Shown: positions 689 through 15,597 of the stretch, one piece after another
Layout of the letters: the number at the start of each line of letters is the position of its first letter
How positions within the stretch are numbered: position 1 is the stretch's first letter
IMG/VR virus record: IMGVR_UViG_3300025660_000034
Coordinates: 1-20,029 of that record
DNA from: a virus
DNA: 20,029 bases
Strand: one strand, 5' to 3'
The notes under the pieces: model-generated
Told to the model about the DNA's origin: nothing
The model's input: the letters and a program-made list of their open reading frames with translations, nothing else
The model's database searches: none
Position numbers and translations under genes: made by a program

Positions 689-1082
689 TGAGATTGTTGA
701 TTGGAGCCCAGACCAGATGTTGGAAGTTGTTTTAGGACAACCGGATGACTTCTTAAAGATAAGAGAGACTCTAACTCGAATGGGTGTTGCTTCGAAGAAA
801 GATTCTAAACTATACCAGTCTTGTCATATCCTGCATAAGCAAGGTAGATACTTTATAACTCACTTTAAAGAATTATTTTTGTTAGATGGTAAGCCATCTA
901 ACTTAACAGAAAATGATGTTGGTAGACGTAATACAATCGTTACGCTAATGTCAGATTGGGGTTTATTAGAGACTGTTGATGCTATCGGCGATACAGCTCC
1001 ATTAAACCAGATAAAAATTATATCTCATAAAGAAAAGTCTGAGTGGGAATTGTGTCCGAAATATAACATAGGAACTAAGTAA
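672..1082 (+). CDS. regA: RegA translational repressor
   Basis: RegA binds ribosome-binding regions of early phage mRNAs and represses their translation, including its own. The segment DDFLKIRETLTRMG, then LYQSCHILHKQGRYFITHFK, and a C-terminus with EWELCPKYNIG match T4 RegA almost residue for residue. The start is uncertain. From 672 the protein is 136 residues, overlaps gp62 by 17 bases and has AAGGA 11 bases upstream. From the in-frame ATG at 717 it is 121 residues, aligns with Met1 of T4 RegA (122 residues), and has GGAG at 703-706. Homology favours 717; the longer form is listed because its extra 15 codons are also open and preceded by a ribosome-binding site. Function is near certain. 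Confidence 0.93.
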   Translation: MVELNDEIVDWSPDQMLEVVLGQPDDFLKIRETLTRMGVASKKDSKLYQSCHILHKQGRYFITHFKELFLLDGKPSNLTENDVGRRNTIVTLMSDWGLLETVDAIGDTAPLNQIKIISHKEKSEWELCPKYNIGTK

Positions 1083-1129
1083 CACCGCAATTTAAAAAGA
1101 ATTTGGAGTATGCCTAACGGGTACTCTAA

Positions 1130-1159
1130 TGTAGAAGTATCTCACGAGAGATGCTATAA
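1130..1159 (+). promoter_or_regulatory. Possible promoter upstream of hsp20
   Basis: The only gap of about 100 bases in this part (1083-1187) contains TATAAT at 1154-1159 and TGTAGA at 1130-1135, an 18-base spacing. TGTAGA resembles the TGTACT/TGTACA element of the four stronger promoters in this window, but the rest of their shared 13-base block is absent. It would give a leader of about 20 bases with AGGAG before the hsp20 ATG. Weak candidate. Confidence 0.35.
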
Positions 1160-1187
1160 TTTAACTCGCTTAACAGGAGAAAACAAC

Positions 1188-1619
1188 ATGACAAACTTTC
1201 AAAAAGATTTGTTCTTCGGCTTCGATTCATTATTTGATTCGATCCAAACCCCCCAGAAACAACAATCATACCCACCATACAATGTGGTAAAGAAAGATGA
1301 TAATCATTACTTGATTGAAATCGCAGTGGCTGGATTTCAATCAGATCAGATTGATTTGACTTTAGAGAAGGGTGTATTAACGGTGAAAGGTACAAGACTT
1401 CTTACCGATGATATAACTGATTATGTTCATAAAGGAATTTCAACAAGAGACTTTACAAGAGCATTTACATTAGCCAAAACCATTAAGGTTGTTGGTGCTG
1501 ATATCGTAGATGGTGTCTTACTAATTGGTCTTGAAAATGAAGTACCAGAGGAAGAGAAACCACAAACAATTAACTTAGGTGAATTTAGCAATAAGGCTAA
1601 AGAACTACTACTAGGTTAA
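1188..1619 (+). CDS. Small heat shock protein, Hsp20/IbpA family
   Basis: 143 residues with an alpha-crystallin domain. YPPYNVVK, then IEIAVAGF, LTVKG, a G-I-S-T-R-D-F-T-R-A-F segment and a final VLLIGLENEVPEEEKPQ follow E. coli IbpA/IbpB closely. Such proteins are ATP-independent holdases that keep partly unfolded proteins soluble; Hsp20 genes are common in T4-like phages of marine bacteria, where a role in virion assembly or in protecting host proteins has been proposed. The start at 1188 is chosen because AGGAG lies 8 bases upstream; an in-frame ATG at 1110 would add 26 residues unrelated to the family and lacks a good ribosome-binding site. It lies between regA and the polymerase gene, which are adjacent in T4, so it is an insertion relative to that order. 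Confidence 0.93.
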   Translation: MTNFQKDLFFGFDSLFDSIQTPQKQQSYPPYNVVKKDDNHYLIEIAVAGFQSDQIDLTLEKGVLTVKGTRLLTDDITDYVHKGISTRDFTRAFTLAKTIKVVGADIVDGVLLIGLENEVPEEEKPQTINLGEFSNKAKELLLG

Positions 1620-1625
1620 ATGTAA

Positions 1626-1657
1626 TATACAGTATACATTAAACCGTATACTGTATA
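1626..1657 (+). repeat. Perfect 12-bp inverted repeat with 8-base loop
   Basis: The arms TATACAGTATAC (1626-1637) and GTATACTGTATA (1646-1657) are exact reverse complements around ATTAAACC. Each arm is itself close to palindromic (TATAC-A-GTATA). It starts just 6 bases after the hsp20 stop and ends 24 bases before the next start. There is no T tract after it, so it is not a typical intrinsic terminator; an RNA hairpin (processing or mRNA protection) or a protein-binding operator fits as well. Confidence 0.8.
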
Positions 1658-1681
1658 CCACACTATACAATGGAGAAATAT

Positions 1682-1966
1682 ATGAGTGAACCTCAAATCG
1701 TAAGACTAGTAACAGGCGAAGAACTTCTATGTACAATTATAGATACTAACCCGCTCCACGTTACAATCGAAACACCTTTAATTATTATCCCTACATCAGA
1801 TGGCAAGATTCAATTCTTACCGTACATGGGTTATGCCGACTTTAAAACTTTACCGATCCGGGTACAAGATGTAATGTTCGTTGTTAATCCTTCAAAACAA
1901 TTGTCTGATAAATATAAGGAAGCTACCGGTGCTATTATGACACCGGCCTCAAAAATAGTTACATAA
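1682..1966 (+). CDS. Small Sm/LSm-like protein of phage
   Basis: 94 residues. The N-terminal half (IVRLVTGEELLCTIIDTN, then VTIETPLIIIP) has the alternating hydrophobic pattern and the TGEE turn of Sm-like phage proteins; a structure of an Sm-like protein of presumed cyanophage origin is published, and this protein resembles that group from memory. Sm/LSm proteins form rings that bind U- or A-rich RNA, so a role as an RNA chaperone or mRNA regulator near the replication genes is plausible but unproven. The start at 1682 is chosen because GGAG lies at 1672-1675, 6 bases upstream; an in-frame ATG at 1670 overlaps that site. The gene sits just upstream of the polymerase promoter. Alternative: an unrelated small beta-barrel protein. 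Confidence 0.6.
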   Translation: MSEPQIVRLVTGEELLCTIIDTNPLHVTIETPLIIIPTSDGKIQFLPYMGYADFKTLPIRVQDVMFVVNPSKQLSDKYKEATGAIMTPASKIVT

Positions 1967-1970
1967 ACGG

Positions 1971-1999
1971 TGTACATTTGCTGTTAATTGTGTTATAAT
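1971..1999 (+). promoter_or_regulatory. Promoter of DNA polymerase gene (family member 1)
   Basis: TGTACA (1971-1976), a 17-base spacer and TATAAT (1994-1999). The upstream block TGTACATTTGCTG is shared, with two or three changes, with the promoters at 4517, 6348 and 11828. A start 7 bases after the -10 box would fall on base 2006, which is the A of the polymerase ATG. Confidence 0.8.
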
Positions 2000-2005
2000 A
2001 GATAC

Positions 2006-4513
2006 ATGATTAATAAAAAAATATATACTAATGCATATCGATACGGCAATAAAATTCGCTATATCGGCTATGAAGACGGAAAGCGTGTCCAACGCGCTAT
2101 CCCTTTCAAACCTACTCTTTACGTAACCTCACAAGATACTTCTTCTAAATGGAAATCTCTTGACGGGAGTAACATTGAACCTATCGACTTTAGTTCAATG
2201 AAAGAAGCTTCAGACTTTGTCAAGCAATATTCTGGTGTAGACCGGTTTAACATATATGGTAATACCAATTATGCTATTCAATATCTGAATCAAGAATTCC
2301 CTGGCCAGATCAAATGGGATCCTAAACATATCAACATAACCTCTATCGATATTGAAACAAAATTCGAAGACGGCTTCCCTCACCCTGATATAGCAGATCA
2401 AGAGGTGACCGCAATCACATGCAAAAATAACATTGATGATATCTATTATGTCTTTGGTTGTGGTGAATATGATGTTGAGAAGTCATATATGCAAACCAAC
2501 CAAGTGATATACACTAAATGTAATGATGAGAAAGAATTGCTTATGCGATATGTTATTCATATGCAAGATGTAGATATCATCACCGGTTGGAATGTACGTT
2601 TCTTTGATATACCATATCTTGTAAATAGAATTGCATCGGTATGTGGTGAAACTATAATGAAGAAGTTATCGCCTTGGGGTGATATTGCAGAACGAAAGAT
2701 TGAAACCTTTGGTCATGAACGACAAACCTTTGAGTTAAAAGGTGTAACTATTCTTGACTATCTTGAAATATATAAGAAGTTTACGTATGTACCAAGAGAA
2801 TCGTATAAACTAGATCATATTGGTCATGTTGAATTAGGTGAGAAGAAGTTATCTTATGAAGAGTTCGGTGATCTTAACATACTATATGCAAAGAACTATC
2901 AAAAGTTTATTGACTATAATATTAAAGACGTTGAGTTGATCGATCGCCTTGAGGATAAGTTAGGTCTTATTACGCTTGCAATGACAATGGCATACAAAGG
3001 TGGCGTTAACTATAATGATGTTATGGGTACTGTTGCTATTTGGGATTCAATTATTTATCGTGATCTAGACATGATCGGTGTAGCTATTCCTCAACCAAAA
3101 TCTCATAAGAAAGAATCTTATCCGGGTGGATATGTTAAAGATCCTATGGTCGGCAAGCATGACTGGGTTGTATCGTTTGACTTGAACTCACTTTATCCTT
3201 CGATCATTATGCAGTATAACATGAGTCCTGAAACTATCATTGCGGGTAAAGACTTGCAAGTGACAGTGGATACTATATTAGATAATAAAGTTAAGAACTC
3301 AAGGCCTGATACGGCACTAGCCGCTAATGGTGTACGATTCGATACTTCTAAGCAAGGTGTACTCCCTCGTATTATTGAAGAGATGTACGAAGAGCGTGTA
3401 TTAATTAAACGAAAAATGTTAAAAGCACAACAGGATTTAGAGAATTGTGATAAGACAAATAAGACTGCAATTTATGAAGCTGAGAAAAGAATAGCTATTG
3501 CTAAGAATAATCAGATGGCGATCAAGCTTCTTTTAAACTCGTTGTATGGTGCTATGGGTAATATATGGTTCAGATACTTTGATATACGTATTGCTACTGC
3601 CGTAACATTATCTGGACAAGCCACGATCAAATGGGCAGAGAAACATCTTAATGAATATTTAAACAAACTAATGGAGACAAATGGAAACACTGATTATGTT
3701 ATTGCTATTGACACTGATAGTGTTTACGTCAACCTGGGTCCTCTTGTACATAAGCTTAACCCTCCTAACCCTGTTGACTTCCTTGATCAAGTTTGTGGCG
3801 GTAAATTGGAGAATGTCCTTGTTAACGCTTATAATGATTTATACTCTAGGTTGGGTGGTATCACTAATAAAATGGTCATGGGTAGAGAAGTTATTGCTGA
3901 TCGAGGTATTTGGACAGCTAAGAAACGTTACATCTTAAATGTACATGATAACGAAGGTGTTCGATATACTAAGCCCAAGTTAAAGATTATGGGTATTGAA
4001 GCTATTAAGAGTTCTACCCCTGAGATATGTCGTGATGAATTAAAGAGTTTATTCACGACGATTATGACTAAGGACGAAGAAAGTGTTCAAAAACAAATTG
4101 CAGACTTTAAACAAGTATTCGTGTCAGCATCACCAGAGCAAGTAGCATTCCCTCGTGGTGTTAACGAGCTTGATAAATGGAAGGATAGCGAAACTGTATA
4201 TTCGAAAGGTACACCTATTCATGTTCGTGGTGCACTCATTCATAACAATTTTATTACAGAGAATAGACTTAAACGTCGTGTGAATCTAATTACGCCAGGC
4301 GACAAGATTAAATTCACATATCTTAAGAAGCCTAATCCAATAAAGGAGAATGTAATCTCTTTCATTGATTATCTACCAAAGCAACTTAAGTTAGAATCAT
4401 ATATAGATTATGATATGCAATTTGATAAGACATATATGAGTGTGATAACACCGATTTTAGATTCGATCGGATGGAAAGCAGAACCAGAATTCACTTTAGA
4501 AAACTTTTTTTAA
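2006..4513 (+). CDS. 43: DNA polymerase gp43, family B, with 3'-5' exonuclease
   Basis: 835 residues (T4 gp43: 898). Replicative polymerase that copies phage DNA with the gp45 clamp. Exonuclease motifs are visible: Exo I with D115-I-E117, Exo II in GWNVRFFDIPYL near residue 200, Exo III in YNIKDVELIDRL near 310. Polymerase motif A is DLNSLYPSI starting at D392, motif B is KLLLNSLYGAMGN near 510, motif C is IDTDS with D569 and D571, followed by AKKRY. All catalytic residues are present, with no intein or split. The start at 2006 (MINKKIYTNAYR) fits the family N-terminus; a TTG at 1988 would lie inside the promoter. There is no ribosome-binding site upstream and the predicted transcript starts at the ATG, so translation from the dedicated promoter would be leaderless. 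Confidence 0.98.
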   Translation: MINKKIYTNAYRYGNKIRYIGYEDGKRVQRAIPFKPTLYVTSQDTSSKWKSLDGSNIEPIDFSSMKEASDFVKQYSGVDRFNIYGNTNYAIQYLNQEFPGQIKWDPKHINITSIDIETKFEDGFPHPDIADQEVTAITCKNNIDDIYYVFGCGEYDVEKSYMQTNQVIYTKCNDEKELLMRYVIHMQDVDIITGWNVRFFDIPYLVNRIASVCGETIMKKLSPWGDIAERKIETFGHERQTFELKGVTILDYLEIYKKFTYVPRESYKLDHIGHVELGEKKLSYEEFGDLNILYAKNYQKFIDYNIKDVELIDRLEDKLGLITLAMTMAYKGGVNYNDVMGTVAIWDSIIYRDLDMIGVAIPQPKSHKKESYPGGYVKDPMVGKHDWVVSFDLNSLYPSIIMQYNMSPETIIAGKDLQVTVDTILDNKVKNSRPDTALAANGVRFDTSKQGVLPRIIEEMYEERVLIKRKMLKAQQDLENCDKTNKTAIYEAEKRIAIAKNNQMAIKLLLNSLYGAMGNIWFRYFDIRIATAVTLSGQATIKWAEKHLNEYLNKLMETNGNTDYVIAIDTDSVYVNLGPLVHKLNPPNPVDFLDQVCGGKLENVLVNAYNDLYSRLGGITNKMVMGREVIADRGIWTAKKRYILNVHDNEGVRYTKPKLKIMGIEAIKSSTPEICRDELKSLFTTIMTKDEESVQKQIADFKQVFVSASPEQVAFPRGVNELDKWKDSETVYSKGTPIHVRGALIHNNFITENRLKRRVNLITPGDKIKFTYLKKPNPIKENVISFIDYLPKQLKLESYIDYDMQFDKTYMSVITPILDSIGWKAEPEFTLENFF

Positions 4514-4516
4514 GGG

Positions 4517-4545
4517 TGTACTTTTACTGAGAACTATGGTATAAT
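4517..4545 (+). promoter_or_regulatory. Promoter of MazG-like/primase-like operon (family member 2)
   Basis: TGTACT (4517-4522), 17-base spacer, TATAAT (4540-4545). From 4517 to 4555 it is identical, base for base, to 6348-6386, spacer included, so the two are recent copies or under tight constraint. It begins 4 bases after the polymerase stop codon. The leader carries GGAG at 4557-4560. Confidence 0.85.
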
Positions 4546-4568
4546 AGATATATAACGGAGAAAATATA

Positions 4569-4976
4569 ATGAGTATAAATTGGCCACTAGACATGCACAA
4601 GATGCATGACAAATATGGAATTAACACACTAGTAAAGGGGATGGATGTAAGTACACTATCATCGTTTATTAGATTTAGAGCTGAATGCGTCCAAGAAGAA
4701 GTGGATGAGTTTAAAGATGCTATTAAAGCGAATGATGCTGAGGAGATGGTAGATGCACTAATCGATATGTGTGTATTTGCTATTGGAACATTAGACTTAA
4801 TGGAAGTTGATGCTAACGAAGCATGGAATAAAGTTCTTAAAGCTAACATGGATAAGAGCGTTGGTATTAAAGAAGGAAGACCCAATCCTTTAGGACTACC
4901 AGATCTTATTAAACCTGAAGACTGGACAGCGCCGGATCATTTAGGCAATCATGGTGGATTCATTTACGTAGTATAA
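4569..4976 (+). CDS. MazG-like nucleotide pyrophosphohydrolase
   Basis: 135 residues. All-alpha NTP pyrophosphohydrolase (MazG/PRA-PH type) with the metal-binding pattern EExxE at 43-47 and ExxD at E59-D62 in EEMVDALID. The C-terminal part with EAWNKVLKANMDKS, GRPNP, GLPDLIKPEDW is typical of phage members of this group. Such enzymes cleave (d)NTPs to (d)NMP and PPi; phage copies are thought to clean the nucleotide pool or alter ppGpp-related signals, and the substrate cannot be read from sequence. It is the first gene after its own promoter, with GGAG 8 bases before the ATG, and its stop overlaps the next start (TAATG). A second MazG-like gene at 16284 is only distantly similar. Confidence 0.85.
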   Translation: MSINWPLDMHKMHDKYGINTLVKGMDVSTLSSFIRFRAECVQEEVDEFKDAIKANDAEEMVDALIDMCVFAIGTLDLMEVDANEAWNKVLKANMDKSVGIKEGRPNPLGLPDLIKPEDWTAPDHLGNHGGFIYVV

Positions 4977-5905
4977 TGACCGAGTTAACTCTTTACAAAT
5001 CGATATACGATAATAAAACCCATAAGCGAATGAGCTTCGATTCATTTGCAAAGTTTGAAGACATGTTATATACACTGTCTAAGAAACCATTGCCCGACAA
5101 GCAATCAGCAATGTTAATGACACCTGCTATCTATTTACCTGACACGACCAGAGCAAATGATAACGTTGTATCGTGGGCTGGTTGGGCCGCGGTAGATGTT
5201 GATGTTGATGCTGAACAGATTTTAAAGGAGTTAACTAAAGAGTATTATTATGTATGTTATTCGACGGCATCGTCTACTAAAGAGAAACCTAAGTTTAGAT
5301 TGGTATTCCCCTTAAGTAATGATGTTCCAGCTGATAAGATCAAACACTTTTGGTATGCTCTCAATAAAGAATTAAATGATATTGGTGATCCCCAAACAAA
5401 GGATCTATCGCGCATGTACTACATACCCGCTACGTACGCAGGCGCAGACAACTTCATCTTTACAAATAAAGGTGATGTAATGAACCCTAATGCTATTATG
5501 CTAAAGCATGATTATGTAGAGAAGACCGGTGGCAGCTTCATAGATAAGTTACCACCTGCGATCAGGGAACAAATGTTAGCACATCGTAGGAGCGTACTAA
5601 CAAACACAGACATACACTGGACAAGTTATCATGATTGCCCATTTGTAAATAAAAAACTGGTAAATGAATATAGACTTATCAGTGAAACTGGATGGTATTC
5701 TAAGATGTATGGCATTATGCTAAACATTGCCGGGAATGCACTTCGCAAAAAATATCCAATAACGGCGTTGGAGATAACAACACTATGTAAGGAGATCGAC
5801 AATGAGACAGGACAATGGTACAAAAATCGAGCATTTGTCAAAGAAGCTGAACGGGCTATTGAGTATGCCACAGCAGACAGTCCCGCTAGAGTTTATTCAT
5901 TTTAG
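4976..5905 (+). CDS. Archaeo-eukaryotic primase (AEP)-like protein
   Basis: 309 residues. The N-terminal 160 residues fit the AEP/PrimPol-type fold of phage and plasmid primases: an acidic DVDVD motif (D74, D76, D78) after WAGWAA, then YSTASSTKEKPKFRLVFPL (95-113), then D143-L-S-R with YIPATY (149-154). In relatives the second motif usually reads S-T-H; here it is S-T-A, so the catalytic His is missing. The C-terminal helical stretch (about 230-300) resembles PriCT-type domains. T4 uses a TOPRIM primase (gp61), not seen here, so this could be the primase of this phage or a degenerate regulatory or origin-binding relative. It overlaps the MazG-like stop by one base and lies in the operon driven from 4517. 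Fold moderately sure, activity doubtful. Confidence 0.65.
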   Translation: MTELTLYKSIYDNKTHKRMSFDSFAKFEDMLYTLSKKPLPDKQSAMLMTPAIYLPDTTRANDNVVSWAGWAAVDVDVDAEQILKELTKEYYYVCYSTASSTKEKPKFRLVFPLSNDVPADKIKHFWYALNKELNDIGDPQTKDLSRMYYIPATYAGADNFIFTNKGDVMNPNAIMLKHDYVEKTGGSFIDKLPPAIREQMLAHRRSVLTNTDIHWTSYHDCPFVNKKLVNEYRLISETGWYSKMYGIMLNIAGNALRKKYPITALEITTLCKEIDNETGQWYKNRAFVKEAERAIEYATADSPARVYSF

Positions 5906-6344
5906 AAATAGAGAATGGGCAAAGGGAACATATAAGAAGAAACTGGGAATGGATTCACTATTCCTTGAATGGTTATTACTTAAGCATGACCAGATTGAAG
6001 ATGCTACAAGCTTAGGTCAAGGCTGGGAAAGTGATGGGATATTAGATGGATTTAAATTAGATTTTAAAGAAATTCAAAATCAGCATAGAACCTTTGGCAT
6101 TCATACAAAAGAGAAATTCGATCAATACAAAGGCAATTATGATAATGAATTGCTAGACCTCGTAGTGTTTTACTCAACACGCCGTAATTATAAAAATCCT
6201 AGATTATTAAAGGCTGGTGATAACGTTAAATTTTATTACCGAGGTCTTATTGATGTACAGGATATGCTTAATGAATCTAAGCCTAGTCATTACCCTAGGG
6301 GTTATAAATTCATTTCTTTAAACAATCAATTAATCACTAAATAG
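5865..6344 (+). CDS. Unknown protein, possible PD-(D/E)XK nuclease-like fold
   Basis: 159 residues from ATG 5865, overlapping the AEP-like gene by 41 bases. I do not recognise it by sequence. After a helix (LFLEWLLLKHDQ) come D57-G-I-L-D61 and a hydrophobic strand ending D66-F-K68-E, then ELLDLVVFYSTR. This D-x(n)-DxK arrangement followed by a hydrophobic strand is what a PD-(D/E)XK nuclease core shows, so a nuclease is a reasonable guess, not a call. Start uncertain: an in-frame ATG at 5802 has a strong AAGGAG 7 bases upstream but lengthens the overlap to 104 bases; ATG 5949 would give a shorter protein with less of the N-terminal region. Last gene before the promoter at 6348. Confidence 0.7.
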   Translation: MPQQTVPLEFIHFRNREWAKGTYKKKLGMDSLFLEWLLLKHDQIEDATSLGQGWESDGILDGFKLDFKEIQNQHRTFGIHTKEKFDQYKGNYDNELLDLVVFYSTRRNYKNPRLLKAGDNVKFYYRGLIDVQDMLNESKPSHYPRGYKFISLNNQLITK

Positions 6345-6347
6345 CTA

Positions 6348-6376
6348 TGTACTTTTACTGAGAACTATGGTATAAT
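6348..6376 (+). promoter_or_regulatory. Promoter of nucleotide/DNA-modification operon (family member 3)
   Basis: TGTACT (6348-6353), 17-base spacer, TATAAT (6371-6376). Identical over 39 bases to the promoter at 4517. It starts 3 bases after the preceding stop codon. The leader has AGGAG at 6387-6391, 4 bases before the ATG. It probably drives the genes to 11824, in which starts and stops overlap or nearly touch. Confidence 0.85.
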
Positions 6377-6395
6377 AGATATATAAAGGAGAAAA

Positions 6396-6704
6396 ATGAA
6401 ATTAGATAATGGTAAACCAAACATAGCACTTATCCCGCCAGAAGTGTTATTACAAATGGCTGAAGTCTTTGGCTTTGGCGCAGAGAAATACGGTATGAAC
6501 GATTGGCGGAAAGATTATGGTGAATGGTCAAGAACATATTCATCTATTCAACGACACCTCAATGCATTTTGGATGGGAGAAGATCTTGATCCTGAATCAG
6601 GCAAACCCCACTTAACACATGCATTAACACAAATAGCAATACTATTAATGTATTACCATGAACATAAAGATATGGATGACAGATATAAAGGAGAAGAAAA
6701 ATAA
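6396..6704 (+). CDS. dATP/dGTP diphosphohydrolase-like protein (DUF5664 type)
   Basis: 102 residues. NIALIPPEVLL, then FGFGAEKYGMNDWRK, then SIQRHLNAFWMGEDLDPESG, then PHLTHALTQIAILLMYY is the signature, in order, of the small phage family annotated as dATP/dGTP diphosphohydrolase (N-terminal domain), an all-alpha hydrolase related in fold to MazG. Family members cleave purine dNTPs; in phages with diaminopurine DNA a related enzyme removes dATP, but no PurZ gene is visible here, so base Z is not implied. First gene of its operon, overlapping the next start by one base (TAATG). Fold and family quite sure, substrate not. Confidence 0.85.
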   Translation: MKLDNGKPNIALIPPEVLLQMAEVFGFGAEKYGMNDWRKDYGEWSRTYSSIQRHLNAFWMGEDLDPESGKPHLTHALTQIAILLMYYHEHKDMDDRYKGEEK

Positions 6705-6988
6705 TGTTTGTAGTACAAAATATAAAGTTTCCAACAGTCTATACACATGTAGACAGCACACAAAAGATTGCTATTTATCATAATAATAAAGATGGCAAAT
6801 ACACCACCCGGTTTTATGTTGACAATTATCAACCTAAAGATAAGCGATATCCACAACGAAGCTTCGGCAAGTCTTTCAAAACAATGGGTGAATCTTTAGA
6901 TTTTGGTGAAAAGATATGTAGTCACTTATCTAAATTTGACGCGAATGATGAACGTGCACTTAAACGAATTTATGAGGAAACAAAATGA
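6704..6988 (+). CDS. Unknown 94-residue protein
   Basis: Not recognised. A short, charged, soluble protein with an N-terminal beta-rich half (IAIYHNN, TTRFYVDNYQ) and a basic middle (KRYPQRSFGKSF) followed by a C-terminal helix. There is no signal peptide, membrane segment or metal motif. The start overlaps the previous stop (TAATG) after GGAG, and its stop overlaps the next start (ATGA), so it is translated as part of the nucleotide-metabolism operon. The basic middle might bind nucleic acid, but this is a guess. Confidence 0.8.
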   Translation: MFVVQNIKFPTVYTHVDSTQKIAIYHNNKDGKYTTRFYVDNYQPKDKRYPQRSFGKSFKTMGESLDFGEKICSHLSKFDANDERALKRIYEETK

Positions 6989-7671
6989 AGAAAATGAACG
7001 TAAGTGATATAAGAGAACATTTCAAACAGGCCTTAGCTAAAGAGGAATTCACCATTGATAAGACTGGAGCTAAGACTATTGAATTAATCGGAGCTTCTTT
7101 TATTGCTGATGAGAATGCTATCTTCGGCAAACCAGTTGATGGTTATATTGCTAAAGAGATTGAATGGTATGAGAGTATGTCAACTAATATCAATGACATT
7201 TATGGTGACGAACGTGATGCTCCTGCAGCTTGGAAATATGCTGCGGATAAGCATGGCAATATCAATTCAAACTATGGTAAGTTAATATTCTCTAAAGAAT
7301 ATCATAACCAATATTTTAATGTTAGAAATGAATTAGTTAACAACCCTGATGGACGAAGAGCTGAAATGGTTTACAATCGCCCATCGGTTTGGACCGAATT
7401 TGATAAAGGTGGTATGTCAGACTTCATCTGTACTAATGCAGTTACATATTATATCAGAAACAAGCAAATCCACTGTGTTGTTCAAATGAGATCTAATGAT
7501 GTAGTCTTTGGATATAAGAATGATTACGCTTGGCAAAAGTATGTATTAGACTCTTTAGTTAAATACATTAACTTACATGAAGATCATCCGGACGAGTTAT
7601 CAACTGGTGATATCCATTGGCAAGTACAGAATCTCCACGTATATGAAAAACACTTTAGCTTGGTAGAATAA
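6985..7671 (+). CDS. 42: Thymidylate-synthase-fold enzyme, likely dCMP hydroxymethylase (gp42-like)
   Basis: 228 residues (T4 gp42: 246). Core features of the thymidylate synthase fold: NSNYGKLIF (substrate loop), C149 as catalytic Cys, then exactly 20 residues on R169-S-N-D172, then G176-Y-K-N-D180-Y-A182, and H218-V-Y220. Counting from the Cys gives no gap against E. coli ThyA (C146, R166, D169, G173, N177, A179), so D180 stands where ThyA has N177. Asn reads dUMP; Asp there is the mark of dCMP hydroxymethylases such as T4 gp42 and of the ThyA N177D mutant that prefers dCMP. The gene sits between 43 and uvsX, as 42 does in T4, and a glucosyltransferase homologue follows. A separate ThyX gene (14277) makes a thymidylate role unnecessary. 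Likely makes 5-hydroxymethyl-dCMP with methylene-tetrahydrofolate. Confidence 0.8.
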   Translation: MKKMNVSDIREHFKQALAKEEFTIDKTGAKTIELIGASFIADENAIFGKPVDGYIAKEIEWYESMSTNINDIYGDERDAPAAWKYAADKHGNINSNYGKLIFSKEYHNQYFNVRNELVNNPDGRRAEMVYNRPSVWTEFDKGGMSDFICTNAVTYYIRNKQIHCVVQMRSNDVVFGYKNDYAWQKYVLDSLVKYINLHEDHPDELSTGDIHWQVQNLHVYEKHFSLVE

Positions 7672-7704
7672 CATGAGTAAAATATTTAATATAGGAGTTA
7701 TATA

Positions 7705-9138
7705 ATGAAAGTTGCTTTTATCTTTGGAAAGGGCATCGAAGGATGCGGCGTTACTAAAGGCGCAAACATATTTGAATCTTGGTTAGTGTCACAAGGACAT
7801 GAAACCATTGTAGTTGATTTTGACAACAAACAAAAATTTGGTCGTGCTAAAGATACTGAATGGAAAAGTACTATCCATCGTGTTGAATCTAATCACGATC
7901 TTAAAGATGCACAGCCAGTACTTGATGAAGTAAATACTTGCGATATTGCAATTATACATTCATTCCCAACACGTAAAAATGGAAAGTATATCGATCGTTT
8001 CCGTGAATTTGTTGAAGGCATTGGAGATCCAATCATTGTAATGCACGACCATGCTATTACAAAGAACACTATTAACAGACAAACACAAGCCGCTGAGTTG
8101 TTTTCTCTAGCAGACATTGGTGTTACACAATCATTTGAAGGTTACTCTAACGAGGGTTATCTACACACTGATCCAGGCCTTGAAGGTCGACTAATGGAGA
8201 ATCCAATATGGGTTCGCACTGGTGAATACGACAAACATCGTGCATCCCTTGAAGATCGTAAAAAGCACTTTATGTATATGGGTCGTATGTCAACACTTAA
8301 AGATCCGGGTATGATTTGTCGTATTGAACCACATTTAAATAATGACTGGGATTTAACTTTGATGGGTTGTGAACGTTCTATCTCATCTATTGGAAATCCA
8401 AACTCTAAAACTCTTGCCACTGATCCAGCACCTTACCATAAATCATATCAACCAAAGATTAAATTTATTGGCACAAATTCTGCAGGCGAACACTATGAAC
8501 CAGCTAAAGAAAAAGAAAAGACTGGTACCACGATTACAGCATATGATAGTTACAAATATGATTTTGGAATGAATCAACTTGGTAGTTCTATGGCAGCTTG
8601 GTGTGGATATCGTCTAGGTAATCCAAAAGAGTATGGCCATCGTATGGAATATACTGTAATTGAATCATTCCTTTTATCTCTTCCTGTTATTAGTAAGCAC
8701 TTTGCTGAAAACGCAGTATCACCTGAAGGTAAAAAGTGGGGTGAATACTATGGTCCACTAATATCTGAAGCAACATGTGAAGAAGAGTTAGCAGCAGAAT
8801 TAAATAGAATCTATGATAACAAAGAAGAATGGATTACTCGTACAAAAGCTTGCCAAGAATTAGTTTATAACTTTAATGATATTGAAGTGCTTGGTCCTAA
8901 GTTCTTAGATTTTGTGTTGACAAAAGGAAAAAGACGTGATAATATAGACTTTATGGATAGGATTTCAAGTTATTTTCCAAGTGCAAAACAACGACGTGAA
9001 GCTGGTGAGATTATTGTATCAACACCAAGCAGTGTATTAAATGAAAAAGCATACACACTTGTAGATGGCAGACAAAATGAAATCAAAGAACCTAAAGAAA
9101 CAGGTGCTACACTTGAGGGATTTTTTAATGTATCATAA
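7705..9138 (+). CDS. agt: DNA alpha-glycosyltransferase, homologue of T4 AGT
   Basis: 477 residues (T4 AGT: about 400). The N-terminus GKGIEGCGVTKG (residues 8-19) matches T4 AGT ARGLEGCGVTK, followed by the same Rossmann-type pattern. H114-D-H116, then INRQTQAAE and ADIG, parallel the T4 HDHS segment; MGRMSTLKD (192-200) parallels IGRTTTWK; HRMEYTVIES (312-321) parallels RSLEYTHLEL, the nucleotide-sugar site of GT-B enzymes. T4 AGT transfers glucose from UDP-glucose to hydroxymethylcytosine in phage DNA, protecting it from restriction. An insert of about 45 residues around 235-290 and a C-terminal extension of roughly 50 residues are absent from T4 AGT. GGAG precedes the ATG by 7 bases. The donor sugar cannot be read from sequence; downstream genes hint at one other than UDP-glucose. 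Confidence 0.88.
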   Translation: MKVAFIFGKGIEGCGVTKGANIFESWLVSQGHETIVVDFDNKQKFGRAKDTEWKSTIHRVESNHDLKDAQPVLDEVNTCDIAIIHSFPTRKNGKYIDRFREFVEGIGDPIIVMHDHAITKNTINRQTQAAELFSLADIGVTQSFEGYSNEGYLHTDPGLEGRLMENPIWVRTGEYDKHRASLEDRKKHFMYMGRMSTLKDPGMICRIEPHLNNDWDLTLMGCERSISSIGNPNSKTLATDPAPYHKSYQPKIKFIGTNSAGEHYEPAKEKEKTGTTITAYDSYKYDFGMNQLGSSMAAWCGYRLGNPKEYGHRMEYTVIESFLLSLPVISKHFAENAVSPEGKKWGEYYGPLISEATCEEELAAELNRIYDNKEEWITRTKACQELVYNFNDIEVLGPKFLDFVLTKGKRRDNIDFMDRISSYFPSAKQRREAGEIIVSTPSSVLNEKAYTLVDGRQNEIKEPKETGATLEGFFNVS

Positions 9139-10171
9139 ACGTATTGTAGTAGATTTTGACGACACCTTAGCTTTCCATCAAAACCGTAAATTTGATCAAG
9201 CTTTACCAAACAAGCCTCTTATTACGAAGCTAAACAAGCTGCATGCTGATGGTTGGCAAATTGATATTTTTACAGCTCGTGGTTCTATATCATGTAAAAA
9301 TCGTGAAGATGCTCGTGATAAGTATGAAACAAACATGCTTAAATGGTTGAATAAGCACAAAGTAAAGTTTAATATGCTCTCATTTGATAAACCATTAGCA
9401 ACTTATTATATCGATGATAAAGGTATTATGCCTGAAGATTTTATTGAAGTTGATATTCGTGAACTTGAAGGTGGATTATCTGGTGGTGAAATATATACCG
9501 ATGGTAAAGTAGTCCATAAGCAAGATAGTAATGCTCATGAAACACGGCTTTGGTTTGAAAGAGCTGAAAAGATTGGTATTAAAACACCTGCTATTCATCG
9601 TGTTGTTGGTGAAACAATTACTATGGATTATATTGATCACGATGAAAACTTCTTTAAAGAAAACTTTTGGATGGCTTTAGCTACAGTTCAAACACAGTTA
9701 GATAAAATGAAGAAATTAAAGCCTGTTGATAATAGATCTTATGTAACGTTTAGTAGTTATATTGATCGTATTGAAGAACATGCACAAAATTCTGGCCAGA
9801 AAAAACTGATGGACGTAGCAGCAAGTTTAAAGGGTTATAAAATAAAGCGTAGTTATTCGCATGGTGATTTTGGCATTAAAAACATGTTATTCAATAATTG
9901 TGATATGCATTTAATGCATTTAATTGATCCAATTTATGGCGTGTTTGGTTCTACTGAATTAGATGCTGCAAAGTTTTGCGCGAGCCTGCTTATTAACGAG
10001 TACCCGAACAAACTATTTAGTCGATCTTTAAATTATTTGGCTATGGCAAATGATATAAATAGAAGTATGCTGGTATCGTTGGTAGCAGCCGAAGTGACTA
10101 GGGTGTACAAATATCACCCTAACAAAGATTTTATTATGGAGTGTATTGATAATGTTTACAAACAAAGCTGA
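9128..10171 (+). CDS. HAD phosphatase-like domain fused to aminoglycoside-phosphotransferase-type kinase domain
   Basis: 347 residues, two domains. The first 110 residues are HAD-like: D9-F-D11-D-T-L (nucleophile loop), FTARG (48-52, motif II Thr), K88-P and YYIDD with D96-D97 (motif IV). The rest resembles kinases that phosphorylate small sugars or choline: SYSHGDFGIKNML with H245-G-D247 and N252 (catalytic loop), then LIDPIYG with D267 (metal site). Fusions of this kind occur in capsular and sugar-nucleotide loci. Starts at 9128 behind GAGGG, overlapping the glycosyltransferase end by 11 bases; an ATG at 9065 would add 21 residues lying inside that gene. Probable role: preparing a phosphorylated sugar or polyol for the cytidylyltransferase downstream. 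Domains sure, substrate unknown. Confidence 0.78.
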   Translation: MYHKRIVVDFDDTLAFHQNRKFDQALPNKPLITKLNKLHADGWQIDIFTARGSISCKNREDARDKYETNMLKWLNKHKVKFNMLSFDKPLATYYIDDKGIMPEDFIEVDIRELEGGLSGGEIYTDGKVVHKQDSNAHETRLWFERAEKIGIKTPAIHRVVGETITMDYIDHDENFFKENFWMALATVQTQLDKMKKLKPVDNRSYVTFSSYIDRIEEHAQNSGQKKLMDVAASLKGYKIKRSYSHGDFGIKNMLFNNCDMHLMHLIDPIYGVFGSTELDAAKFCASLLINEYPNKLFSRSLNYLAMANDINRSMLVSLVAAEVTRVYKYHPNKDFIMECIDNVYKQS

Positions 10172-10619
10172 GATAGCAAGAAAAGTTGGTAAGTCTGTTG
10201 AAGAAGTAAGAATTGGTTTTACCTGTTCTACTTTTGATTTATTACATGCTGGTCATATTGTAATGCTACAAGAAGCTAAAGAGCTTTGTGATTATCTCAT
10301 TTGCGGGTTATTAACCGATCCTACGGTTGACCGTCCTGATTCAAAAAATAAACCAATCCAAACTCCGTTTGAACGATATGTTCAATTGGCGGGTTGTCGT
10401 TTTGTTGATGAAGTCATTCCATTCAGTACAGAACAAGAAATCGTTGATATGATTTTAACTATTCAACCACACATTAGAATCGTTGGCGAAGAATATAAAG
10501 GCACAGATCATACTGGTGTTGGCTTATGTTCTATTCACTATAACAAACGTAAGCACTCGTTTTCATCTACAGATTTAAGGAATCGTGTAGTAGAAGCAAG
10601 TGCAGGAGAAAATAAATGA
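10152..10619 (+). CDS. Cytidylyltransferase-like protein (TagD/glycerol-3-phosphate type)
   Basis: 155 residues. Rossmann-type nucleotidyltransferase: GFTCSTFDLLHAGHIVMLQ carries the HxGH nucleotide-binding motif, followed by DYLICGLLTDP, PFERYVQLAGCRFVDEVIPF, IVGEEYKG and S-S-T-D-L-R-N-R near the C-terminus, the counterpart of the ISTTxLR motif. Relatives activate glycerol-3-phosphate, phosphocholine, ethanolamine phosphate or heptose phosphate with CTP. The start at ATG 10152 has GGAG 10 bases upstream and overlaps the preceding gene by 20 bases; a TTG at 10146 is also open. With the kinase and the AGT homologue upstream it could supply a CDP-linked donor for DNA modification. Alternatively it belongs to a surface or lipid pathway, but no such genes are nearby. 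Confidence 0.85.
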   Translation: MFTNKAEIARKVGKSVEEVRIGFTCSTFDLLHAGHIVMLQEAKELCDYLICGLLTDPTVDRPDSKNKPIQTPFERYVQLAGCRFVDEVIPFSTEQEIVDMILTIQPHIRIVGEEYKGTDHTGVGLCSIHYNKRKHSFSSTDLRNRVVEASAGENK

Positions 10620-11824
10620 CTTATACATACGCATCCATCGTACCCTTAATTGGTGGTGAAACTCTCGCAATGCAAAGCGTTTTTGGTAAACGACCAGAGT
10701 ATATTTTATCTTATGATGTGTTTGCTGGTAACGATAAACACTTATTAGAATATTATAATTATGAAGTACCGTATCATGTTTTAGACAAAGATGATATGTC
10801 AAAGGTTAACCTTGAACAGGTGGACGTAGTTAATACTGTATGTCCTTGTGCTGGGTTAAGTTCGTTGAGTGTTTCTGCTAGTGCTGACTCATCTGTTAAT
10901 GATTGGATGATTAATACTACTAAACATGTATTAGAGAATATGCAACCAAAGGTTTTTTGGGGTGAGAATGCTCCACGTCTTGCAACTAAAATGGGTTCAC
11001 CGGTTGTCGAGAAGATACGTAAGATTGGAAAGGAGTATGGTTATACCTTTTCGATATACAAAACAAAGAGTCTATTGCATGGCTTAAGTCAGGTAAGAGA
11101 TAGAACTTTCTACTTCTTTTGGAAAGGTGATGAAATACCGTTGTTTGATTATTATAATAGACCTAATCAAAACATGTGTGAAATGATTAGATCAGTACCA
11201 AGCGATCCGGCTGACCCAATGAATGTGCTTACATCTAACAAAGTGCCTTCACAAGATGATCATTACTATAAATTTATTCTTGAAGAGATTTGTGGTGGTA
11301 TTACCCATAAAGAATTTGTGGCCAGTCTTGAGCCAGGTCGAAGTGTTAATCCCCAATTGTATATAGAGAAACACAGTGATTATACTAAAGTTGCTGATTG
11401 GTTAATAAAGAATGGTAATCCAAAGGCTGCAGATAAAGCATTGAGAAATGCAGAGAAAATTGCTGGTGGTGGTAACCTTATGAGACGTACCAGTGAAATC
11501 CCATCTGATTATACAGGTGCTTTCGTTGGACATCTTCCTATGCGCGTAACACACCCTGATGAAGATCGATACTTAACATATCGTGAAGCTATGGAGTTTA
11601 TGAAGTTGCCTAGAGACTTTAATATCATTAGCCCTAAGAAGAATCTTAATCATATCTGTCAGAATGTACCTCTCACGACAGCAGCTGATATGGCAACTAA
11701 TATTAAACGGTATTTAGAAGGGACATGTGAAATGATTAGAGATGATTATCTTATTCAAGACAATAAATCTAAGAAGCTAGTTATGACAAATAGGTCAAGT
11801 TCTTTAGAAGAATTTTTAAAATAA
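10616..11824 (+). CDS. DNA C5-cytosine methyltransferase
   Basis: 402 residues. The main motifs are present in order: P77-C78 in VCPCAGLSS (catalytic Cys, motif IV), G116-E-N118 in GENAP (motif VI), Q159-V-R161-D-R163 (motif VIII), RYLTYREAMEFMKLP (motif IX region) and NVPLTTAADM (motif X). Motif I is unusual (PLIGGET in place of FxGxG), but the other catalytic residues are intact. The target-recognition region between 170 and 300 is of ordinary size. Such enzymes place a methyl on C5 of cytosine in DNA. That fits poorly with hydroxymethylated cytosine from the gp42-like enzyme, so the target may be host DNA, remaining cytosines, or the enzyme may be modified in function. The start overlaps the previous stop by 4 bases (ATGA). 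Last gene of the operon. Confidence 0.85.
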   Translation: MTYTYASIVPLIGGETLAMQSVFGKRPEYILSYDVFAGNDKHLLEYYNYEVPYHVLDKDDMSKVNLEQVDVVNTVCPCAGLSSLSVSASADSSVNDWMINTTKHVLENMQPKVFWGENAPRLATKMGSPVVEKIRKIGKEYGYTFSIYKTKSLLHGLSQVRDRTFYFFWKGDEIPLFDYYNRPNQNMCEMIRSVPSDPADPMNVLTSNKVPSQDDHYYKFILEEICGGITHKEFVASLEPGRSVNPQLYIEKHSDYTKVADWLIKNGNPKAADKALRNAEKIAGGGNLMRRTSEIPSDYTGAFVGHLPMRVTHPDEDRYLTYREAMEFMKLPRDFNIISPKKNLNHICQNVPLTTAADMATNIKRYLEGTCEMIRDDYLIQDNKSKKLVMTNRSSSLEEFLK

Positions 11825-11827
11825 CGG

Positions 11828-11856
11828 TGTACTTTTACCGCGTTTTGTGTTATAAT
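11828..11856 (+). promoter_or_regulatory. Promoter of uvsX-gp41 operon (family member 4)
   Basis: TGTACT (11828-11833), 17-base spacer, TATAAT (11851-11856). The upstream block TGTACTTTTACCG differs from the 4517 and 6348 copies in one base, while the rest of the spacer differs freely. It begins 3 bases after the methyltransferase stop; AGGAG then lies 7 bases before the uvsX ATG at 11888. Confidence 0.85.
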
Positions 11857-11887
11857 AGATCTATCAAGTAGAAAAAAGGAGAAATAT

Positions 11888-12925
11888 ATGAGTATAATGG
11901 ATAAACTCAAGAAGAATAGTAGAATTAAGGAATCGGCAATCCTTAACAAATCTAAGCTATTCACTAATCAGGATATGGTACCTACACCAGTTCCGATGAT
12001 TAACGTAGCATTGTCCGGTGATCCCGATGGTGGATTAACATCAGGCCTAACTGTACTTGCCGGACCATCGAAGCACTTCAAAACTTCGTTTGGTTTGTTA
12101 ATGGCTGCAGCTTATCTTAAGAAACATGATGATGCTATTATGTTATTCTATGATTCAGAGTTCGGCTCACCACAATCATACTTTGAAAGTTTCGGTATTG
12201 ACACTGGTAGAGTATTACATACACCAATCACTGACGTTGAAGAGCTAAAGTTTGATGTGGTAAATCAGTTAGAAGCTATCGAGAAAGAAGATAAAGTTAT
12301 TATTGTTATTGACTCTATTGGTAACCTTGCATCTAAGAAAGAAATGGAAGATGCTAAGAATGAGAAGAGTGTTGCTGACATGTCACGTGCTAAAGCCTTG
12401 AAAGGTTTGTTTAGAATGTGTACACCATATCTTTCAATGAGAGATATTCCAATGCTTGCAATCAATCATACCTACCAAACAATGGAGATGTTCTCTAAAG
12501 CTGTTGTGTCTGGTGGAACTGGAATTTACTATAGTGCTGATAACATTTGGATCATTGGTAGACAACAAGAGAAAGAAGGTAAGGACATTAAAGGTTATAA
12601 CTTTATTGTTAATGTTGAAAAGTCTCGATTCGTTAAAGAGAAGAGCAAGATTCCTATTGGTGTAACTTGGGAAGGTGGTATTGATCGATACACTGGTTTA
12701 TTAGATGCTGCTATTGAAGGTGGATTTGTTGTTAAGCCTACGATGGGTTGGTATTCAAAAGTGAACACCGCAACCGGTGAAGTCTCCGAAGATAAGTTAA
12801 GAGCTAAAGCATTAGATGGCGAGTTCTGGGAACCTATCCTTAAAGATCAAGCCTTCAAAGACTTCTTAAAGAATAAGTATGAAATCGGTCATGCCACTAT
12901 GATTAAAGGTGATATCTCTGAATGA
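11888..12925 (+). CDS. uvsX: UvsX recombinase, RecA family
   Basis: 345 residues. Strand-exchange protein of T4-type recombination-dependent replication and repair, acting on ssDNA with UvsY and gp32. Walker A is G59-P-S-K-H-F-K-T66, close to the T4 form GPSKSFKS; Walker B is VIIVIDSIGNL near 133-143; the segment SRAKALKGLFRMCTPYL and the late VNVEKSRFVKEKSKIPI also fit UvsX. AGGAG 7 bases before ATG 11888 fixes the start. A 4-base overlap with the helicase gene, the T4-like order uvsX-(40)-41 and its own promoter show a recombination and helicase unit; T4 gene 40 is missing between them. Confidence 0.96.
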   Translation: MSIMDKLKKNSRIKESAILNKSKLFTNQDMVPTPVPMINVALSGDPDGGLTSGLTVLAGPSKHFKTSFGLLMAAAYLKKHDDAIMLFYDSEFGSPQSYFESFGIDTGRVLHTPITDVEELKFDVVNQLEAIEKEDKVIIVIDSIGNLASKKEMEDAKNEKSVADMSRAKALKGLFRMCTPYLSMRDIPMLAINHTYQTMEMFSKAVVSGGTGIYYSADNIWIIGRQQEKEGKDIKGYNFIVNVEKSRFVKEKSKIPIGVTWEGGIDRYTGLLDAAIEGGFVVKPTMGWYSKVNTATGEVSEDKLRAKALDGEFWEPILKDQAFKDFLKNKYEIGHATMIKGDISE

Positions 12926-14277
12926 ATTTAGAAACATTAATATTACGTAACTTAATTCAAGATGAAAATTATACTAGAACAGTAATACCTCATATCAAGC
13001 CAAAATACTTTAATGGTCCTCATAAGATTTTATTCAATGAGATTGTTAAGTTTGTTACTGAATATAGTAAAATGCCTAACGTTGAAGCACTTAATGTTGA
13101 GCTTCAGAAGAATGGTAATATCCATCAAGATGAAATCGGTGAAGTGTTTGCTATCGCTAATGATTTGGATAAAGTGATTGAAGATACTAATGCAGAATGG
13201 TTAACGAAACAAACTGAGAAGTGGTGTCAAGATAGATCTATTTACCTTGCCATTATGGAATCTATTGATATTATTGATGGTAAGCATGACACACTTCAAA
13301 ACAATGCATTGCCTGAATTATTAAGTGATGCATTAGGTGTTTCATTTGATACTAACATTGGCCATGACTATATTGATAACTCCGATGATCGCTATGAGTT
13401 TTATCATAGAGAGGAAGAACATTTACCGTTTGACTTAGAGATGTTTAACAAGATCACTAAAGGTGGACTTGTTAACAAGAGTTTGAATATTGCCCTTGCA
13501 GGCACAGGTGTAGGTAAGTCTTTGTTTATGTGTCATGTAGCTGCAGGTGCTTTAACACAGATGAAAAATGTGTTATACATATCTATGGAAATGTCCGAAG
13601 AAAGAGTTGCTGAACGTATTGATGCTAATCTGATGAATGTACCTATTGACCAGTTAGAGAACTTAAGTAAAGATATGTTCGATAAGAAGTTACATAAGAT
13701 TGCTAACGTCGGTATTGGTAAGTTGATTGTTAAAGAATATCCTACAGGTGCTGCTAATGCTTCTCACTTCAGAGCCTTACTTAATGAGTTGAAGTTAAAG
13801 AAGGACTTCATACCAGATTTGATTTGTGTTGATTATCTAAACATTTGTTCTAGTAGTAGAATGAAAGCTGACGGTGCTGGTGGGTCATATCAATATGTTA
13901 AAGCCATTGCTGAAGAGCTACGTGGCTTGGCTATTGAGAATAACCTACCTATACTATCCGCGACTCAAACAACACGCGGTGGTTATGGTAATTCAGATGT
14001 AGGACTTGAAGATACTTCGGAATCATTTGGTCTACCAGCAACGGCAGATCTAATGTTTGCTTTAATCTCTACTGAAGAGTTGGAGAATCTAAATCAAATA
14101 ATGGTGAAGCAATTAAAGAATAGATATAACGATCCAACAGGAGCTACAAAGAAATTTGTCGTTGGAATTGATCGAGCTAAGATGAGATTGTATGATGTCG
14201 AAGACTCTGCACAATCGTTAAATTTGGGTACTGTTCAAGCAAGTACCACTAACAACTTTGAAGGATTTACAGTATAA
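12922..14277 (+). CDS. 41: Replicative DNA helicase gp41, DnaB family
   Basis: 451 residues (T4 gp41: 475). Hexameric helicase of the replication fork. Walker A is G194-T-G-V-G-K-S200 after SLNIAL; NVLYISMEMSEERVAERI (motif H1a region) and LICVDYLNIC (Walker B) follow, then SATQTTRGGY (sensor region) and KNRYNDPT. The N-terminal 170 residues form the helical domain that contacts primase in this family. Start overlaps the uvsX stop by 4 bases (ATGA). Normally a TOPRIM primase (gp61) gene lies nearby in T4; here the next genes are ThyX and dCMP deaminase, and no gp61 is visible in the window. Confidence 0.95.
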   Translation: MNLETLILRNLIQDENYTRTVIPHIKPKYFNGPHKILFNEIVKFVTEYSKMPNVEALNVELQKNGNIHQDEIGEVFAIANDLDKVIEDTNAEWLTKQTEKWCQDRSIYLAIMESIDIIDGKHDTLQNNALPELLSDALGVSFDTNIGHDYIDNSDDRYEFYHREEEHLPFDLEMFNKITKGGLVNKSLNIALAGTGVGKSLFMCHVAAGALTQMKNVLYISMEMSEERVAERIDANLMNVPIDQLENLSKDMFDKKLHKIANVGIGKLIVKEYPTGAANASHFRALLNELKLKKDFIPDLICVDYLNICSSSRMKADGAGGSYQYVKAIAEELRGLAIENNLPILSATQTTRGGYGNSDVGLEDTSESFGLPATADLMFALISTEELENLNQIMVKQLKNRYNDPTGATKKFVVGIDRAKMRLYDVEDSAQSLNLGTVQASTTNNFEGFTV

Positions 14278-15439: not shown

Positions 15440-15597
15440 TAGCAAATTATAAAGAAAGGGTAAAGAACTTATTTACTAAAAAGCCTAACTACAAAGAGCT
15501 GTATGAAGAAGAAAGAAAAACGGCAGAAGTCTTTGAATTTAAATACAATAAGTTAAGAAGACAGTTAAAGTCTATTATAAAAGAGTGTGATCAATAA
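15436..15597 (+). CDS. Small unknown protein, 53 residues
   Basis: Opens with ATGA overlapping the dCMP deaminase stop, behind GAGG/GGAG 7-10 bases upstream, which is good evidence of translation. It is highly charged (many Lys and Glu), predicted as one long helix with heptad-like spacing of hydrophobic residues (YEEERKTAEVFEFKYNKLRR), so a coiled coil is possible. The sequence is not recognised. Confidence 0.65.
   Translation: MIANYKERVKNLFTKKPNYKELYEEERKTAEVFEFKYNKLRRQLKSIIKECDQ

Follow-up and report, generated by a model that had tools for sequence, protein, structure and literature searches.

A predicted dCMP hydroxymethylase beside an exchangeable, probable DNA-glycosylation cassette in a marine T4-like phage

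The dCMP hydroxymethylase of phage T4, gp42, is the model for the enzyme described here. According to the account in PMC6400193, its residue E60 serves in folate activation, while S94, Y96, and D145 are placed close to the water and to C5; changing any of these three residues is described as giving deficient mutants, and the active site of thymidylate synthase (ThyA) is reported there to be sealed by a C-terminal tail. A 2026 paper reports that Mosigvirus phages arabinosylate 5-hydroxycytosine, not 5-hydroxymethylcytosine (hmC), by way of a 5-hydroxy-dCMP synthase of the thymidylate synthase family (PMC13390438). Judging from that report, the phage proteins RB69p048 and JS98gp039 are likely to be 5-hydroxy-dCMP synthases, and the database record of RB69p048 carries the note “similar to dCMP hydroxymethylase, td.” The region between gene 43 and uvsX, with its sugar genes, is described as plastic in cultured T4 relatives (PMC6024577, PMC8056088).

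The DNA analyzed here, called the window, is the whole stretch of 20,029 nucleotides of IMG/VR virus record IMGVR_UViG_3300025660_000034. By its polymerase, this uncultured phage belongs to a lineage near the Kyanoviridae. The open reading frame (ORF) at issue and its two landmarks are these:

1988 to 4513, plus strand: gp43 DNA polymerase, a landmark
6985 to 7671, plus strand: predicted dCMP hydroxymethylase, orthologue of T4 gp42, ATG start, 228 amino acids
11888 to 12925, plus strand: uvsX, a landmark

ORF 6985-7671 lies downstream of gp43 and upstream of uvsX, which is the T4 gene order, as an earlier note on this DNA had pointed out. Its only Pfam label is “Thymidylate synthase” (PF00303, 1.1e-13), a name that several phage annotations also give to the family and that is misleading, just as the note had suspected. 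In a phmmer search of the PDB, the T4 dCMP hydroxymethylase (1b49 and others) is matched with an E value of 6.9e-71 and the best thymidylate synthase with 4.6e-6; by these values, the match to the T4 enzyme is far beyond chance. The identity is 52% over 225 amino acids to T4 gp42, 28% over 177 amino acids to E. coli ThyA, and 23% to RB69p048. When the ORF was aligned by MAFFT with E. coli ThyA and T4 gp42, C149 fell on ThyA C146 and D180 on ThyA N177 with no gap between them, which agrees with the gapless alignment in the note; the corresponding T4 columns are C148 and D179.

The ORF has 975 matching records in the phage collection. Among the matches listed, which are spread over the whole ranking of 975, the gp42 proteins of enteric and Aeromonas T4-like phages stand at 46-57% identity, followed mostly by Microbacterium phages at 30-35%. 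In a tree, the window gp42 groups with the gp42 proteins of T4, Klebsiella, and Enterobacter (support 0.74), to the exclusion of ThyA, the RB69-type proteins, and the actinophage proteins. Judged by alignment and tree, the window gp42 adds one more protein to a known family and is an ordinary T4 gp42 orthologue. Besides the overall identity, it shares with T4 gp42 (PDB 1b5e/6a9b) eight tested catalytic and substrate residues and the place between 43 and uvsX. It differs in its tetrahydrofolate contacts (N53V, R59K, I81A, V85A, and R177K), a point against the hydroxymethylase reading, and at its C-terminal end, which falls in the column of T4 residue 226. The last 20 residues of the T4 protein are missing in the window and, counting it, in 75 of the 81 ORFs of a first marine set, duplicates included. 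The marine ORFs counted here come from the best 80 of 590 relatives, additional loci, and the isolate XG4. The thymidylate synthase C-terminal tail is also absent from the MAFFT-aligned ORF.

Several genes around gp42 would act in nucleotide metabolism:

4569 to 4976, plus strand: MazG/PRA-PH-type pyrophosphohydrolase (mazG1, PF01503), a candidate dCTPase
6396 to 6704, plus strand: protein with a dATP/dGTP diphosphohydrolase-N domain, first gene to follow the promoter-like repeat that precedes gp42
14277 to 14990, plus strand: ThyX, flavin-dependent thymidylate synthase (7.2e-42), a dTMP supply independent of gp42
14987 to 15439, plus strand: dCMP deaminase (PF00383, PF14437)

Since ThyX is in the window, gp42 would not be needed for dTMP. 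Each of the six large marine relatives carrying gp42 has exactly one match to the thymidylate synthase fold family, and four of the six have ThyX. In the pelagiphage HTVC008M, a match to this fold was not found, and none is annotated between 43 and uvsX. PF01503, PF00383, and PF14437 are reported alongside thymidylate synthase genes on cytosine-modified contigs in PMC8670742, and all three were found by Pfam in the window. When the T4-type gp1 (dNMP kinase, phrog_139) and gp56 (dCTPase, phrog_173) families were searched for, the positive controls T4 and RB69 had strong scores, but none of the six large relatives, whose contigs are possibly incomplete, yielded a convincing match; among the marine gp1 values, the best (2.2e-4) is close to the 8.8e-4 of HTVC008M, the phage without the fold match. 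This negative result counts against full replacement of cytosine. The mazG1 product could stand in for gp56.

A promoter-like repeat, GTGTAC-TTT ... TATAATAGAT, occurs in four copies in the window (1951-2020, 4497-4566, 6328-6397, and 11808-11877), which precede gp43, mazG1, the dGTP-diphosphohydrolase-like gene, and uvsX, respectively. The TATAAT of the first copy (1994-2006) stops some 6 nt short of the likely gp43 ATG and would give a nearly leaderless polymerase mRNA. Elsewhere in the window, positions 16556-17857 encode a putative zinc-protease domain fused to a RimK-like ATP-grasp domain.

Between gp42 and uvsX lie four further genes:

7705 to 9138, plus strand: AGT-A, predicted DNA glycosyltransferase with a divergent T4 alpha-glucosyltransferase (AGT) fold, 477 amino acids
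9128 to 10171, plus strand: HAD phosphatase fused to a choline/aminoglycoside-type kinase, 347 amino acids from the ATG at 9128, proposed to dephosphorylate and re-phosphorylate a sugar
10146 to 10619, plus strand: RfaE-domain-II/TagD-type nucleotidyltransferase, proposed to act in NDP-sugar synthesis
10616 to 11824, plus strand: C5 cytosine methyltransferase homologue, the constant right flank of the cassette

Together with gp42, these genes would make up a single unit flanked by the last two repeat copies. The C5-methyltransferase homologue has a PC motif, in a phage expected to have little free cytosine.

Sequence comparison ties AGT-A to T4 AGT through its N-terminal part. The Pfam model PF11440 covers residues 14-147 only, phmmer aligns AGT-A alone to T4 AGT over 1-146, which is the first 150 residues or so only, and a profile made of AGT-A proteins only gives a good match to T4 AGT over 1-149 only. 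(One AGT profile search was biased because the T4-type AGT-B, described below, was included in its alignment.) The possibility that just a part of AGT-A is an AGT was set aside, as the structural match to T4 AGT is full-length: the best PDB match of the AlphaFold model (pLDDT 84) is T4 AGT 1y8z, with an E value of 1.4e-17 and a TM score of 0.68 by query and 0.82 by target. Eighteen columns are invariant over 25 AGT-A relatives and T4 AGT, including T4 R204, K209, E306, and E311, which presumably bind the donor. In its modeled fold and its invariant residues, AGT-A is thus of the AGT type. It differs from T4 AGT, a GT-B fold protein, in its low identity (17% in the structural alignment), in an insert around 228-275 and a C-terminal extension of about 70 residues, and in being accompanied by genes for its own donor synthesis. 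The end of the AGT-A gene (window about 9120-9138) has six T where L002 and L004, two related contigs, have seven, which could be a natural change or a sequencing error; because of it, the window ORF has 477 and not 474 amino acids.

In the HAD domain of the fused protein, D9, D11, T13, K88, D96, and D97 are invariant in 26 of 26 sequences. The other part of the protein has invariant H245, G246, D247, N252, D267, and P268 in HGD...N and DP motifs, which we take to be the marks of a kinase. A model of the fusion (pLDDT 82, pTM 0.64) matches choline, aminoglycoside (APH), and methylthioribose kinases, as well as the HAD protein 1xpj. The nearest described counterpart is the donor module of RB69 and JS98, composed of a HAD protein and an NTP-transferase-kinase (and an isomerase), which, as outlined in PMC6024577 and PMC8056088, has the three proposed chemistries and the pol-uvsX locus in common with the window. 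The window HAD profile matches the RB69-type HAD family with an E value of 1.6e-25, and by this measure the HAD domains of the two modules are clearly related; the kinase match is short and weak (probability 42.5). The window differs in having a HAD-kinase fusion and a separate RfaE/TagD-type nucleotidyltransferase and in its predicted acceptor base, hmC and not hydroxycytosine. The isomerase gene was not identified in the window.

AGT-A and its donor genes, here called cassette A, are present in six contigs (L002-L005, L092, and the window). In six more (L006-L011), a 390-amino-acid T4-type AGT, AGT-B, takes their place; AGT-B of L006 scores 254 bits with PF11440, and the AGT in the contig of L009 is 39% identical to T4 AGT. 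The gp42 of these 11 other contigs is at least 99.2% identical to that of the window over the aligned part, which in L092 is only 146 bases. Compared with L008, the window is 99.4% identical over 1-7671 and 99.2% identical over 10637-15777, and the two are unrelated in between. With the locus L095, the pattern is reversed: gp42 is only 61% and the C5-methyltransferase homologue 49% identical, but AGT, HAD-kinase, and nucleotidyltransferase reach 97%, 97%, and 98%. Comparing the window with both L008 and L095 reveals one more feature:

7651 to 7704, plus strand: recombination scar, composed of a donor-derived gp42 end, ATGAGTAAAAT (the first codons of the donor dCMP deaminase gene), and the donor AGT leader

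At the base level, the window is L008-like to about 7650 and then L095-like through the last gp42 codons and ATGAGTAAAAT. In L095, ATGAGTAAAAT starts a dCMP deaminase gene, which, flank included, measures about 0.87 kb and is absent from that place in the window. The L095-like sequence restarts just before AGT and extends into the first codons of the C5-methyltransferase gene, after which the window is L008-like again. The simplest reading is that an L095-like cassette was imported into an L008-like phage, in a direction that we infer, and that the deaminase gene was lost; the recipient has a dCMP deaminase elsewhere (14987). From the exchange and its scar, the genes that separate gp42 from the C5-methyltransferase gene appear to be an exchangeable glycosylation cassette.

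The same genes recur together across 41 loci with the HAD-kinase fusion. The nucleotidyltransferase is found in 40 of them, the C5-methyltransferase homologue in 37, and AGT-A in 30. A second, unrelated glycosyltransferase family (L125 type) is found in 10 (L116-L122, L125, L126, and L130), and the only locus without either glycosyltransferase, L128, begins inside the HAD-kinase gene. An AGT accompanies the RB69-like donor module (a HAD protein of about 120 amino acids and an NTP-transferase-kinase) in L025, L060, and L061; in L064 (L066 is cut) and in XG4, the partner of this module is the second glycosyltransferase. All four combinations of two donor modules and two glycosyltransferase types therefore occur, which suggests that they may serve the same kind of donor. 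XG4, or Pseudoalteromonas phage vB_Psh_XG4 (PP712099), is a cultured seawater isolate whose related cluster is made of gp42, HAD, NTP-transferase-kinase, two putative glycosyltransferases, and the C5-methyltransferase homologue.

These loci also bear on the question of what the sugar is attached to. The gp42 could make hmC while AGT, HAD-kinase, and nucleotidyltransferase decorate a glycan on the surface of the host or the virion and not DNA. The HAD (EcbF/BcbF) and RfaE/TagD-type families are, after all, named after capsule and lipopolysaccharide (LPS) pathways, and PMC7029224 reads RfaE and glycosyltransferase genes as LPS-related. Where at least 3 kb upstream is available, gp42 stands beside the HAD-kinase gene in 21 of 23 loci; the two misses are L097, with 3,032 bp of contig upstream, and L126, which has the HAD-kinase and nucleotidyltransferase genes and where gp42 was not seen in 13 kb. 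As L126 shows, hmC phages are not the only carriers of the donor module, a point in favor of surface glycans, but the other 21 loci argue for a role tied to gp42. So do the best PDB match of the modeled AGT-A, a DNA glucosyltransferase fold, and the allelic exchange of the cassette with a full-length T4-type AGT. Decoration of a surface glycan is therefore considered improbable. In L126 (5983-10956), the same donor module appears in another setting, with an epimerase-like gene and the second glycosyltransferase.

The nature of the base depends on the active site of gp42. The earlier note took Asp at the ThyA-177 position as the hallmark of a hydroxymethylase. That Asp does mark the reading of dCMP, but it is not a hallmark of hydroxymethylation by itself because Cys148 and Asp179 are both found in RB69p048 and JS98gp039 as well; Asp180 as sufficient proof was accordingly rejected. 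A wider residue set makes the distinction. The window has E58 (T4 E60), W83 (W82), S95 (S94), Y97 (Y96), D146 (D145), C149 (C148), D172 (D171), and D180 (D179), and all eight are identical to T4 in 75 of 75 distinct marine ORFs and in 81 of 81 ORFs of the first marine set, in which duplicates and the window are counted. RB69p048 and JS98gp039 differ at six of the eight (E60F, W82A, S94P, Y96N, D145E, and D171N). On these alignments it is the set, not the single Asp, that discriminates the hydroxymethylase from the RB69 type.

This comparison decides how much weight to give to a 5-hydroxy-dCMP synthase, which, like the enzyme of RB69-type phages, would hydroxylate C5 of dCMP and leave the cassette to glycosylate 5-hydroxycytosine. 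The RB69p048 and JS98gp039 proteins share with the window the thymidylate synthase fold, the Cys and Asp, and a slot in the pol-uvsX region beside HAD and NTP-transferase/kinase genes, and the HAD families match. Yet the six residues replaced in these two proteins are kept in the window and in all 75 distinct marine ORFs, the identity to RB69p048 is low, and an RB69p048-like active site is not present in ORF 6985-7671; such a synthase is very improbable. The retention of the T4 folate and water residues, which RB69p048 and JS98gp039 lack, supports the note's further proposal of a dCMP hydroxymethylase and hmC-type DNA.

Still less credible is a dCMP methylase with 5-methyl-dCMP as its product, by analogy with Asn-to-Asp mutants of thymidylate synthase; PMC8670742 reports that N177D turns ThyA towards dCMP, giving 5mdCMP. 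The window retains the hydroxymethylase-type residues at T4 positions 94 and 145, where ThyA has P and L, it is without the tail said in PMC6400193 to seal the ThyA site, and the adjoining putative DNA glycosyltransferase requires a hydroxyl acceptor. An ordinary second thymidylate synthase, as the family name and the “two different thymidylate synthases” of pelagimyophage group C (PMC7029224) might suggest, was rejected as next to impossible, since the ORF has Asp and not Asn at 177 and no closing tail, ThyX is already there, and dCMP hydroxymethylases are by far its closest relatives.

The ORF product is thus almost certainly a dCMP hydroxymethylase, with an activity predicted from T4 gp42. 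Transferred from that enzyme, Cys149 would attack C6 of dCMP while Asp180 would read and protonate N3, the C5 carbon would come from methylene-tetrahydrofolate activated by Glu58, and water near Ser95, Tyr97, and Asp146 would complete 5-hydroxymethyl-dCMP. The hm-dCTP would be incorporated into DNA, and the virion DNA very likely carries an hmC-derived base. After replication, the T4-AGT-fold enzyme (7705-9138) would attach a sugar to the hydroxymethyl group. For the donor, the HAD domain would strip the phosphate off a sugar phosphate, the fused kinase would phosphorylate another position, and the nucleotidyltransferase would then form the NDP-sugar. Because this glycosyltransferase is encoded directly downstream of gp42, the final base is probably glycosylated hmC, and glycosylation by AGT-A has good, if somewhat lower, credence than the base itself. 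The whole explanation, a gp42 hydroxymethylase with an exchangeable glycosylation cassette, is likely; orthology, active-site conservation, cassette exchange with its scar, and co-occurrence can be read from the DNA, and each enzyme activity, hmC in the virion, and the glycosyl product are predicted.

The adjoining donor genes suggest that AGT-A uses a donor other than UDP-glucose, and we lean slightly towards a sugar that is not glucose. The sugar cannot be named from sequence, as the families allow CDP-, ADP-, or UDP-donors. Perhaps it is a pentose, a guess made because arabinose is reported in RB69 DNA and a deoxypentose in the DNA of Shewanella phage Thanatos (PMC6024577, PMC12838424).

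Other marine loci hold other genes in this region. Two families, F19 (19 ORFs, with a GDSH motif) and F21 (18 ORFs), replace the sugar cassette between gp42 and uvsX (L035, L046, L047, L053, and others), and a PLP-fold protein, F26 (12 ORFs), often accompanies them. For neither F19 nor F21 was a relative found in Pfam or the PDB, and their loci are a possible new hmC hypermodification. Near gp42 in other marine contigs (L040, L039, and others) are a myo-inositol-phosphate synthase-like family (F40, by Pfam) and a KdsA-like family (F39, by eye), and the TET-associated glycosyltransferase family PF20691 adjoins gp42 and the C5-methyltransferase homologue in L027 (Pfam scan) and in L023, L024, and L052 (clustering). 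A broader scheme, which we offer tentatively and consider rather doubtful, is that in marine T4-like phages hmC is a constant anchor and the attachment is switched by cassette exchange between gp42 and the C5-methyltransferase gene or uvsX. The window would then carry pentosyl-5-hydroxymethylcytosine, perhaps arabinosyl-hmC, by way of the HAD-kinase fusion, the TagD-type nucleotidyltransferase, and a retuned AGT; elsewhere, the two families without a Pfam or PDB match and the PLP-fold enzyme would give a non-sugar hmC derivative.

Three things look new: a cassette with a HAD-kinase fusion, the way it replaces a T4-type AGT as an allele in phages that are otherwise near-identical, and a set of diagnostic residues for marine gp42. 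No description of them was found in the open-licence literature that was searched. Some of the genes reported in PMC7029224 may belong to the same system. The findings correct the label thymidylate synthase, under which cytosine-modifying phages stay hidden in marine data. They also show that the Asp marker alone cannot separate hydroxymethyl- from hydroxycytosine phages, while the residue set separates the examples compared. The cultured phage XG4, with its related cluster, makes the model testable, although it holds the other donor module. Here, probable DNA-glycosylation genes have been caught being replaced between near-identical phages in nature. The swap, a recent one, suggests that these viruses can change their own DNA chemistry and, if the sugars differ, it would give direct access to the question of how modification-dependent defenses are evaded by phages.
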